From Halorhabdus sp. BNX81 (GTDB lineage Archaea; Halobacteriota; Halobacteria; Halobacteriales; Haloarculaceae): DNA of 64,000 nt. A model generated the notes under the pieces. That model saw only the letters and a program-made list of their open reading frames with translations. It did no database searches and was not told the origin of the DNA. Every line of letters starts with the position of its first letter. The first letter of the stretch is position 1. The stretch spans positions 186,001 through 250,000 of the forward strand of contig NZ_CP107254.1 in assembly GCF_029229925.1 (NCBI RefSeq). The letters run 5' to 3'. Shown in pieces: positions 13,445 to 61,456 of the stretch. The position numbers and the translations under genes are program-made.

Positions 13445-15319
13445 GTTTCAGACGGACCCTCGTGGGGTTGAAGCCCGCGGTATATCGACAAGCCGAAAGC
13501 GGCCACCGACGTTTCAGACGGACCCTCGTGGGGTTGAAGCGCGTCGAGGAGTTGGGTCACGTTGTCCTGTGTATAGGTTTCAGACGGACCCTCGTGGGGT
13601 TGAAGCGTATTAGTCGGATCGCGTATGATAACCAGCGTCTCGTTTCAGACGGACCCTCGTGGGGTTGAAGCTCGCGGGTCACTGGCCGTCACCTCCGTCA
13701 AACTCGGTTTCAGACGGACCCTCGTGGGGTTGAAGCATCTCCTGAGGTCCGTCGTTGGCCTGCCAGGAGTCGGTTTCAGACGGACCCTCGTGGGGTTGAA
13801 GCTCTTGCAGGATGTCGATCACCTCGTCCGTCGACGTGTTTCAGACGGACCCTCGTGGGGTTGAAGCGGCCGGCGGTGGGGGGTTAGAGAAAAGGGGTCT
13901 AAAGTTTCAGACGGACCCTCGTGGGGTTGAAGCTCCCCGAGAGGTGGACGGCCGTGAGCGGCCCAGAACGTTTCAGACGGACCCTCGTGGGGTTGAAGCT
14001 CACCCGGCGCAGGGCACTGAAAGCGGGCGCTGGCGGTTTCAGACGGACCCTCGTGGGGTTGAAGCGGTGGCCTGCTCGCCGTGGCGATCGGCGCGCTCCC
14101 CGTTTCAGACGGACCCTCGTGGGGTTGAAGCACGATCCGGCCACCGTCGCTGAATCCCTTTATCTCGGTTTCAGACGGACCCTCGTGGGGTTGAAGCTAC
14201 GGCCACAATACTGAATTATGATATTATCACATGTTTCAGACGGACCCTCGTGGGGTTGAAGCGGACGATGGTGAACGACATGGTTTCGATAGCGAAGCGT
14301 TTCAGACGGACCCTCGTGGGGTTGAAGCACCGCCTGACGGTCGCTCACCACCGGTAAGCTCCCGGTTTCAGACGGACCCTCGTGGGGTTGAAGCACGTCG
14401 GACCCGACGACTGACGCTGACGGCCAGCCGCGTTTCAGACGGACCCTCGTGGGGTTGAAGCCGAATCTCGGTCTGATTGCTGTCCCTGCTGCTGCAGTTT
14501 CAGACGGACCCTCGTGGGGTTGAAGCCAGACACCGGTATTTGTCAACCGTTTAACTTCAGGATGTTTCAGACGGACCCTCGTGGGGTTGAAGCTGGCGGA
14601 CTTGATAAGACCCAGCCATCGCGTCAACGCGTTTCAGACGGACCCTCGTGGGGTTGAAGCTTGAAGGGTCCTGGTATCGCGTCGATCGCCTGAACGGGTT
14701 TCAGACGGACCCTCGTGGGGTTGAAGCGCTTTGTGAGACGGCATCAATCGCTCCCGCGCCTCGGTTTCAGACGGACCCTCGTGGGGTTGAAGCCGACGTA
14801 ACTGGCATGCCCGACACTTTCGGTGGGGTGGTTTCAGACGGACCCTCGTGGGGTTGAAGCACATGACGGCAACAAGATGGTGGGTGAAGGCATTTGGTTT
14901 CAGACGGACCCTCGTGGGGTTGAAGCGACACCTACCAACCACTGGATGAACAGTTTGGCTTTGGTTTCAGACGGACCCTCGTGGGGTTGAAGCAAACATC
15001 ATCCAGCGAACTTCTAACTCACTTTCCTGAAGTTTCAGACGGACCCTCGTGGGGTTGAAGCGTCTTACCAGTCTTCGGATCGCCAGCGACGGTCAGTTTC
15101 AGACGGACCCTCGTGGGGTTGAAGCTCTACAAATTGCCCCTGCATCGTCTGTAGATCGTCAGTTTCAGACGGACCCTCGTGGGGTTGAAGCATCCGGAAA
15201 AAAGAGGGTCGACACGGCCGACACGCGTTTCAGACGGACCCTCGTGGGGTTGAAGCATGGAAGGCGGGGAAATCGCCCGGCGATCGACCAGTTTCAGACG
15301 GATCCTCGGGGGTTGAAGC
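13445..15319 (+). CRISPR. Type I-B CRISPR array, 29 repeats, 28 spacers
   Basis: Repeats are 30 bases, starting GTTTCAGACGGACCCTCGTG and ending GGGTTGAAGC. Counting by eye, 28 copies look identical; the last (15291-15319) is 29 bases with C to T and one lost base, the usual decay at the leader-distal end. Spacers are 34-38 bases, mostly 36. Inside the repeat, ACCC and GGGT can form a small stem, and the last 8 bases, GTTGAAGC, would be the crRNA 5' handle after Cas6 cutting. No duplicated spacer was noticed. Orientation matches the cas operon. Several spacers, such as 14198-14232, are AT-rich compared with the chromosome. Confidence 0.99.
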
Positions 15320-16205: not shown

Positions 16206-16302
16206 GTTTCAGACGGACCCTCGTGGGGTTGAAGCTCGATCCGGGACCGGTCGCTCCCGAAAACCATCAGGTGTTTCAGACGCACTCTCGTGGGGCGACT
16301 GC
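16206..16302 (+). CRISPR. Solitary one-spacer CRISPR mini-array
   Basis: A repeat identical to the main array (16206-16235), a 37-base spacer (16236-16272), and a decayed repeat (16273-16302) that keeps GTTTCAGACG and CTCGTGGGG but has lost the GTTGAAGC handle (it ends CGACTGC). It lies 886 bases past the main array, on the same strand, behind an opposing gene. The intact first repeat should still be cut by Cas6, giving one crRNA-like product with an irregular 3' end. It could be a relic of a longer array split by the gene at 15446-16102, or a crRNA-like regulator. Confidence 0.9.
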
Positions 16303-21662: not shown

Positions 21663-21756
21663 TACCACCCGATAACCGAGCCACTCAGTTAACGCTTTTC
21701 AGTCGATGTGAGTTTGTGTTTGGATCTGTGACTTCTGGATCCGCCAGTGATGAGTC

Positions 21757-22073
21757 CAGCATGAAAGCCCCGGCTGGCTCCGGTCGAGGCGCTCGCTGCG
21801 GTCCTCACTCACTTCGCTCGTTGCGGTCCTTGCGTCGCCCGTCTTCCCGGAGCCAGCCGCCCCTTTCAGTCCCACCCGTGTCGGCTTCTTCACTGGCTTA
21901 AGTGGGTGGGACTGAAAGGGGCGAGCCGCGCGTGGCGGCGTACGCCGCCACGGAATGAGGAGGTCGGCGTCGCCGACCTCCCTTTCGGGGAAGGCGGACC
22001 CGACAAGCACCGGAACGCAGTGAGGAGCGCAGTCGCGGTCCCCCGACTCGAACGGCTCGGGGCTTTCATGCTG
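21757..22073. repeat. Dispersed structured element, copy 1
   Basis: 317 bases bounded by a perfect 16-bp inverted repeat (21757-21772 / 22058-22073, CAGCATGAAAGCCCCG). Inside: stem A, 12 bp (21772-21783 / 21847-21858); the central 18-bp inverted repeat CCCCTTTCAGTCCCACCC (21860-21877 / 21904-21921); stem C, 7 bp (21922-21928 / 22053-22059); a perfect 22-bp palindrome (21931-21952); and a 9-bp hairpin with a GTC loop (21960-21980). No convincing reading frame. It shares the central repeat and outer AAAGCCCC stem with the copy at 60970-61377, but most other stems differ in sequence while still pairing. It fills the gap between atpD and the dioxygenase gene. Confidence 0.85.
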
Positions 22074-22146: not shown

Positions 22147-23226
22147 TCACCAGAACCCTTGCTCACGGTCAATCCAGGTGACGATCACCACGTGGGGCAG
22201 GGTCAGGACGGCGATGCCAACGAGATAGACCCCGATCGCGCTCGCGACTCCCTCGCTCGCCGGCGTCAAGACGTACAGCGCCCACAGGAAACCGCCGGCA
22301 GCGAGCGTCGTCGGCAACGCTTCGACCGCCAGCCGACCGGCCGGCTTCAGCCACTCGCCAGCCGAAAGCGAAGACGCCGTCCGCTGATCCAGCAACCCAA
22401 CCCGGACGATGTGACGCAGCGAGTGCCACAGACAGAAGTACGCCCCGATGGCGAGCACTGGCTCGACGAGGAGGAAAAACACCCACAGCAGTGCCGTCTC
22501 GGCCGCGTCGAGTCGCCAGCCGCCGTTGTCGCTCTGCCGACGACCGTTCGCCTTCGCCAGCCGCCACCCGCGCCACAGCGTCACGACGGTCACCAGCCCG
22601 AACCCCACCGCAACGATCGCTTGCCCGCTCGGCTCGAACAGCCACGCCGACCCGATCGACCCGCCGAAGGGATCGACGAACGTTTCGAGGACGGCCAGAT
22701 ACCGGTCGGGAAACCCGACCAGCGGGACCGCCATCGGCAACCCGCCGCGGACCACCGTCGTCAGCGCCTGCTGGGTGCGATCGTCGAGGTGGCCGCCGCC
22801 GAAGGCGTCCCGGAGGACGAACAACTCGCCCTGCCCCCAGTGGAACCACGTCAGCGCGATGAACACCACGGCGGCCGGGACGGGTACGATCAGCCACGCC
22901 GTGAGGTAGGCCCCGCCGAGAATTGCATAGAGGACGCCCACGATCGCCAGTCCCCGTGCGTCAACCCGGCCGGACAGCGCCCGCGGCAGGGCGACGTAGT
23001 CCAGCGCGCCGTGGGGCAGGCCAAAGACTACGACGCTCGCAGCCAGGGGCAGATACCGGATGGGCTCCGGTAGCGGGGCGAGGAGTGGGACGACGACGGC
23101 GAGCCCGAGTAGCGGCAGCCAGCCGGTCCACCGGAGGAAGGCCCCGAGGCTAGCGGCCACCGTCCCGTCGATCCCGCCCCTATCGGTCGTCGGTTGCACG
23201 CGTTTGAACTCGATGGGCAGGTGCAA
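22147..23226 (-). CDS. blh: Brp/Blh-type beta-carotene 15,15'-dioxygenase
   Basis: A 359-residue polytopic membrane enzyme that splits beta-carotene into two retinals, the cofactor of rhodopsins. Family motifs: FGLPHGALDY, ALTWFHWGQGE, CLWHSLRHI and LTLPHVVIV, each with a histidine likely to bind iron. About eight hydrophobic helices. It is 23 bases after a small membrane-protein gene that itself follows atpB by 27 bases, so it probably belongs to the ATP synthase transcript. No rhodopsin gene lies in this window. Brp and Blh paralogues cannot be told apart here. Confidence 0.92.
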   Translation of the reverse strand: MHLPIEFKRVQPTTDRGGIDGTVAASLGAFLRWTGWLPLLGLAVVVPLLAPLPEPIRYLPLAASVVVFGLPHGALDYVALPRALSGRVDARGLAIVGVLYAILGGAYLTAWLIVPVPAAVVFIALTWFHWGQGELFVLRDAFGGGHLDDRTQQALTTVVRGGLPMAVPLVGFPDRYLAVLETFVDPFGGSIGSAWLFEPSGQAIVAVGFGLVTVVTLWRGWRLAKANGRRQSDNGGWRLDAAETALLWVFFLLVEPVLAIGAYFCLWHSLRHIVRVGLLDQRTASSLSAGEWLKPAGRLAVEALPTTLAAGGFLWALYVLTPASEGVASAIGVYLVGIAVLTLPHVVIVTWIDREQGFW

Positions 23227-60950: not shown

Positions 60951-60969
60951 GGGGCCGTCCTCGATGGTC

Positions 60970-61377
60970 GTGTTTAGTTTAGCGGGAATCGCTTGCAACA
61001 GCCAGAAAGCCCCCGCGCTCTCAGCTGCCGCGACTCGCTGCGCTCCGGCAGGTGCTTGCGTCGTCGGGGCTTGCTGAGAACGCGGCCCCTTTCAGTCCCA
61101 CCCGAGGCCGGTTGGTCAGCCGGCATGGGCGGGACTGAAAGGGGCGAGTGGCTCCGGGAAGACGGCCGAAGTAAGGCGCGAGGCGCTATGCGCCTCGGCA
61201 CGCGCGAACGGGCCCACGGCCCGTGAGCGGACACCGCAACGGAGTGAGGAGCGCAGCGAGGTCGTCGGACGGCGTCGCCGTCCGACTGTCCGAGGGACCA
61301 GCGGTCCCTCGCTACCCTCAACCGGAGCCACTCGGGGCTTTCTGGCTATCTCACCCAGGAATCGCTTAACTAAACAC
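60970..61377. repeat. Dispersed structured element, copy 2
   Basis: 408 bases between phosphoesterase and cofE. Outermost inverted repeat of 15 bp with one mismatch (60970-60984 / 61363-61377); outer stem, 14 bp (61000-61013 / 61334-61347); stem A, 12 bp with one mismatch (61013-61024 / 61074-61085); central CCCCTTTCAGTCCCACCC inverted repeat with one mismatch (61086-61103 / 61127-61144); stem C, 12 bp (61146-61157 / 61322-61333); hairpins at 61179-61197 (8 bp), 61208-61224 (7 bp), 61264-61286 (10 bp, GTC loop) and 61291-61311 (9 bp). A 13-bp long-range pairing (61034-61046 / 61248-61260) is an alternative. No plausible gene inside. Confidence 0.85.
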
Positions 61378-61456
61378 CGCCTCCTCGATTGCTTTCGACG
61401 CCGGACGAACGCGACGCTACCGGGCGACTTTTGGCGGTTCCGGGCCGACTCGGGGT

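Follow-up and report, generated by a model that had tools for sequence, protein, structure and literature searches.

A cloverleaf-forming repeat upstream of atpD in Halorhabdus, probably an old copy of a haloarchaeal IS6-type MITE

Small haloarchaeal elements and the copy next to atpD

Members of the IS6 family make 8-bp target duplications, and two IS6 MITEs, 227 and 336 bp long, are known according to the available excerpt of one paper (PMC7986276); the accessible part of another names MITEHarch3 and MITEBth2, the former, from halophilic archaea, being held in ISfinder (PMC6807381). IS6-type MITEs of halophilic archaea are already known, and what is unusual in the family described here is its copy-specific self-pairing arms and a core flipped in place. 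As far as the partial descriptions go, its members share with those MITEs the 8-bp duplication, the GG...TGTT ends, the lack of a transposase and a length of about 300 bp (L189, an uninterrupted copy, has 307 bp). The description of MITEHarch3, in the same partial sources, contains neither a cloverleaf core nor variable arms nor inversion, a distinction that is drawn by description and not by a comparison of sequences.

Further small elements have been reported from Haloquadratum, in a publication of which a part was available (PMC3119063). The PATEs and the IS605-type elements resemble the present family as short haloarchaeal elements whose palindromes are targeted by small insertions, but the PATEs are described there without terminal inverted repeats or target duplications; the SMR-A elements and the 'SwitchRepeats' resemble it in their small size and inverted ends, but the SMR ends are given as unrelated to any transposon and no target duplication accompanies them. 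The same excerpt also tells of repeats that occupy one position in opposite orientations. Young copies of the present family have both terminal inverted repeats and target duplications, and their ends are those of a transposon, which places the family outside the PATE/IS605 type as well as the SMR class.

REP/BIME elements, with their RAYT transposases, are dispersed intergenic palindromes in inverted pairs; the family is like them in its dispersed intergenic palindromes and differs in its larger arms, its IS6-type ends and its target duplications. The literature searched on haloarchaeal repeats and IS6 MITEs yielded, as far as those texts were available, no cloverleaf core whose arms are self-complementary and yet variable, and the repeat is apparently undescribed so far.

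Two copies of it lie in the window, that is, the whole stretch of 64,000 nucleotides of Halorhabdus sp. BNX81 that was analysed. The window also holds a CRISPR array (CRISPR-DR24) at 13445–15319, whose last repeat, at 15291, is degenerate, and a perfect stray repeat at 16206–16235, 0.9 kb beyond the array. Copy 1, a two-armed cloverleaf core at 21757–22073 (features of the elements are given without strand), has two minus-strand neighbours by Pfam, BCD (beta-carotene 15,15'-dioxygenase) upstream and ATP-synt_D (atpD) downstream. The first-pass annotation had taken it for a mobile-type repeated element that fills the gap between the dioxygenase gene and atpD; its nature and its location in the gap are upheld, the filling is not, since some 90–95 bp separate the element from atpD and about 70 bp from the gene on its other side. 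Within the A-type ATP synthase cluster the dioxygenase gene itself (22147–23226) separates atpB from atpD, and it adjoins atpD also in two congeners without the element.

Direct reading confirmed the perfect 16-bp ends, CAGCATGAAAGCCCCG at 21757–21772 and its exact complement at 22058–22073, together with the perfect 22-bp palindrome CGTGGCGGCGTACGCCGCCACG at 21931–21952; the hairpin described earlier with 9 bp is present at 21959–21981, with a stem of 10 bp and a 3-nt loop. Overlooked until now was a larger perfect inverted repeat of 20 bp (21858–21877/21904–21923), the stem of a central hairpin (21858–21923) with a 26-nt loop. To its left lies arm 1 (21772–21858, stem GGCTGGCTCCGG/CCGGAGCCAGCC), which recurs as the other arm, in an inverted core, at the same site in the congener G072; to its right lies arm 2 (21923–22058, GAGCCG.../...CGGCTC), common to G072 and a second congener, G073. 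Both the palindrome and the small hairpin belong to a 55-bp insert in arm 2 (21929–21983) that has no counterpart in the G072 and G073 orthologues. The fold of copy 1 is beyond chance, with energy z-scores of −9.5 on the plus and −9.2 on the minus strand and none of 100 shuffles equally stable. One-armed MITEs at C1:649264 and C1:711166 match stretch 188–236 of the element at about 90% identity. No recognisable IS6 end or target duplication was found at copy 1 (L019) and no recognisable IS6 ends at its two orthologues (L144, L145), all of which fell into the class 'none' of the end and duplication test; by ends and duplication copy 1 is not an IS6-family MITE, to which it is related by its core only.

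The site was compared in five genomes, the own genome (G000) and G070 to G073; G068 and G069 (L173, L174), read only on the side of atpD away from the dioxygenase, were left out. In this comparison with relatives, which the first-pass annotation had envisaged, the element is variable, occupying the site in G000, G072 and G073, with the syntenic site of G070 and G071 empty. The G072 core aligns best to that of G000 when inverted (alignment score 389 vs 236). In G073 the core has the G000 orientation and keeps one arm, while the other is replaced by an unrelated self-complementary arm that occurs also at L002 of the own genome, the one whole-arm exchange observed. At least one in-place inversion of the core has occurred, and an arm has been replaced as a unit; within the own genome, L004 against L003 provides a second inversion of the core relative to the ends. 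The earlier statement that the orientation of copy 1 is independent of the neighbouring genes is borne out, whereas that of the same internal order as in copy 2 has only limited meaning, given a nearly symmetrical core that also occurs in inverted form.

Between the element and atpD, the putative promoter motif CAGTTAAYSCTTTTCAGTC (21686–21704, minus strand) stands 24–42 nt upstream of the ATG and is kept in all five genomes, with or without the element. Such a distance from the ATG is suited to a leaderless haloarchaeal promoter, and from its sequence CAGTTAAYSCTTTTCAGTC looks like the leaderless promoter of atpD, with the element upstream of it. The insertion of copy 1 on the upstream side of the atpD promoter region would date from the ancestor of the three related species or from earlier. 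The initial proposal that a strong RNA fold might uncouple atpD finds no support because this conserved promoter-like motif stands between element and gene, and the pairing, as set out below, is of a DNA and not an RNA type. Most likely copy 1 is without consequence for atpD, to judge from this arrangement, and for that gene the outcome is mundane.

Plan of the core and covariation of its arms

Full-length elements were parsed in 147 cases. Since parsing demanded the core motifs (with at most one or two mismatches), the sample is poor in decayed copies, and the pairing seen between outer ends in the flank, open-frame and IS6-end tests is partly due to selection; the arm stems were free of it, except in the comparison by loop identity, for which at least 8 of 10 paired positions were required. 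Anatomy and pairing were read from 79 of the 147 elements, with both arms of 60–100 nt and flanks of at least 30 nt; 74 of the 79 entered the alignment (A1), and 76 the pair counts after three duplicates had been dropped.

All follow one plan, with the outer stem AACAGCnnGAAAGCCCC/complement enclosing arm 1, the central hairpin GCCCCTTTCAGTCCCRCCC/complement and arm 2, such that the core can fold as a four-way-junction cloverleaf in which the central hairpin is constant and arms 1 and 2 vary. The alignment of 74 elements has 67 consensus pairs, 41 of them changed on both sides; 96.3% of the cells are paired vs 75.9% after shuffling, and 958 cells are doubly changed vs 306 in shuffles and 110–174 when slid. 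In the 10-bp arm stems pairing reaches 95.7% for arm 1 and 94.2% for arm 2, compared with 49.5% and 46.9% when partners are shuffled (n = 76), with 64 and 70 distinct stem sequences, respectively, among the 76 elements. Across the aligned elements GAAAGCCCC is invariant, the central TTTCAGTCC nearly so, and both arms keep a T-A pair at stem position 8 with hardly an exception (72/74).

Where arms have similar loops, 493 doubly changed pairs stand against 154 single changes, arm pairs not being independent of each other; the excess of double changes fits repair or strong selection alike. Uncompensated stem changes between orthologous copies exist (L178, L195). Even among arms with loops of 90–100% identity the stems differ, at an identity of about 0.68 compared with a background of about 0.45; diversifying selection on the stems is not claimed, since conserved loops with sequence-free stems account for these differences equally well. 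Arm pairing amounts to 94%, 78% and 88% in elements with both, one and no IS6 ends, respectively, and for this reason a selection that still acts on resident copies is not demonstrated.

IS6-type ends, target duplications and spread of the family

Young copies carry ends GGYRSTGTTYAGWTWAG at a fixed 39–40 nt from the core together with 8-bp target duplications, which became visible only once the outer IS6 ends had been located. The IS6 end motif, at 13/17 or better, was found at 40 of 231 element ends and at none of 462 control positions; of the ends scoring at least 12, 36 of 48 lie 39–40 nt from the core, and a target duplication of at least 6/8 accompanies 7 of 15 two-ended elements (shuffled mean 0.44, maximum 3). 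Copy 2 is a complete IS6-type MITE with the same type of core (60966–61381, ends GGTCGTGTTTAGTTTAGCGGG / GGCGGTGTTTAGTTAAGCGATT), enclosed by the 8-bp duplication TCCTCGAT at 60958–60965 and 61382–61389. It is found in G000 and G073, the syntenic site of G072 being empty, and it exceeds its G073 orthologue L189 by about 109 bp (compared at window 61170–61311) owing to small perfect hairpins that lie in the loop of one arm. Four of the six perfect hairpins of the window (stem of at least 8, loop of 3) are located inside copies 1 and 2.

Scanning 30 IS6 transposase loci for ends gave four with a PF13610 (IS6-family) transposase, the same end type and 8/8 duplications, namely L235 and L236 (same genus), L231 and L250, with L236 flanked on both sides by GTCGAACG; L244 has a different end sequence, and the remaining loci have ends but no duplication, or no ends. 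The insertion sequences that share the ends of young copies are of the IS6 family, about 700 bp long, and reside in related genomes, while a search of the own genome for PF13610 gave no match. Elements paired by their ends measure 143–591 bp with a longest open frame of 173 aa, and contain no transposase gene. The family is assigned to the IS6-type MITEs because its young copies have 8-bp duplications and ends in common with the IS6 insertion sequences of relatives.

Other partners and coding parts were considered and discarded. The one DDE_Tnp_1 gene (PF01609) of the own genome is without matching ends nearby; coding flanks, hinted at by a weak three-base pattern, were rejected because the medians of the inward open frames are only 11–24 codons; and as to an autonomous version whose central loop would hold a gene, 12 of the 176 central motifs are without a near partner, and judged by spacing none of these encloses a gene.

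A second MITE, with one arm and a length of about 205 bp (more in some copies), was noticed at L212 (773–982), L213, L214, L215, L216 and L217, and also at L012, L013, L015, L016 and L018; its ends GGCGGTGTTCAGATAAGCACC / GGTAGTGTTCAGATAAGGATC are the other IS6 end type of L231 and L250. In genus g12, the right flank of L141 and other loci show a tandem 15-mer (AACTCCACGACCGCC) or scattered ACCGC motifs ending in ACCGCGAACAGCGT, standing where IS6 ends would be.

Copy 1 has 41 matches in the own genome, a single contig of 2,828,981 bp, reduced to 14 two-armed sites, one of which is without one arm and one degenerate; at seven of the 14 the two flanks are those of an element-bearing site in G072 or G073, and at an eighth this holds for a single flank. 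The central motif GGGACTGAAAGGGG, with at most one mismatch, occurs there 26 times vs once for the reversed control. Beyond this genome a clean copy matches 113 of 146 genomes of the taxonomic family, in 21 of 22 genera, and the central-hairpin pattern matched at least 120 stretches; the titles among the matches listed for it are all haloarchaeal (Haloarcula, Halonotius, Halorarius, Haloterrigena, Natronococcus, Halohasta and others). Partial matches to the element are present in 25 plasmid records, and there was no match in the phage collection searched. The repeat is very widespread in haloarchaea and is now linked to IS6 transposases.

Origin of the element and forces acting on its core

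Copy 1 is probably an old, inactive haloarchaeal IS6-type MITE with a DNA-level cloverleaf core that came to lie upstream of the promoter region of atpD. The elements of the family would be copied by an IS6 transposase provided in trans, as their shared ends suggest, and the core would be shaped at the level of DNA, as an extruded cruciform or a single-stranded hairpin. Its fold may be kept because transposition or replication needs it, or hairpin-templated repair may rewrite one side of a stem from the other; whole-arm exchange is a further candidate source of arms that are self-complementary yet variable. A more specific scheme is put forward tentatively, in which the core is a four-way cruciform that is extruded and then recognised by its junction and a small number of fixed bases, the arm stems being continually rewritten by hairpin-templated repair, with the inverted outer stem as the place where resolution or recombination flips the core in situ.

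It is possible, if doubtful, that the fold is unselected and that neutral quasi-palindrome correction by template switching keeps the palindromes perfect, a view that is compatible with the MITE. The purely Watson-Crick matching without wobble is consistent with it, as are the small hairpins inserted in arm loops at sites common to two species, whereas the invariant GAAAGCCCC, the nearly invariant TTTCAGTCC and the near-invariant T-A at position 8 argue for a recognised structure.

The main weakness of the IS6 assignment is that 79 of the 112 elements that could be tested on both flanks lack any recognisable IS6 end, against 18 with one and 15 with both. Decay of old ends is the likely cause; another mobiliser may also be involved, or a mobility of the core's own. 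A core that is its own mobile unit, based on a cruciform or single strand like REP/BIME or IS605-type palindromes and merely riding in IS6 MITEs, would suit these end-less elements, the sharp common boundary at AACAGCnnGAAAGCCCC and the arm-like modules that recur in one-armed MITEs. We regard it as unlikely, as no duplication or other insertion-site signature was detected at the core boundary in 117 elements, no gene-bearing version of the central loop occurred among the loci read, and ends, where found, mostly keep their fixed distance.

Finally, strong folding with covariation and conserved loop and junction sequences would also be expected of a structured non-coding RNA family, with a transcribed core whose cloverleaf acts as an RNA regulator or terminator. 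G-U pairs are tolerated in RNA helices, while a helix that matters as DNA has no reason to favour G-T over A-C. The arm stems of 137 elements contain 50 G-T and 61 A-C among 2740 cells, those of 76 clean elements 20 and 19 among 1520; a bias per element is likewise absent (sum of |GT−AC| 69, expected 71), a comparison of low power with mostly one or two such cells per element. In the tRNA acceptor stems of the same loci, used as control, the ratio is 11 to 4 in 168 cells. Because G·T does not exceed A·C in the arm stems, the pairing acts on DNA and not on RNA. A regulatory RNA is improbable, rejected as it is by these wobble statistics and further disfavoured by the nearly symmetrical core seen inverted in place and by the lack of any Rfam family at gathering threshold, the central hairpin hitting microRNA families far below the gathering score.

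The element is a clear natural case in which changes of paired bases resemble RNA covariation yet arise on DNA, and genome screens can mistake such elements for structured RNAs. For the study of in-place inversion and of hairpin-templated repair in archaea it is a readable system and, should the tentative scheme of a recognised cruciform be true, it would be a mobile element selected for the secondary structure of its DNA and not for its sequence.
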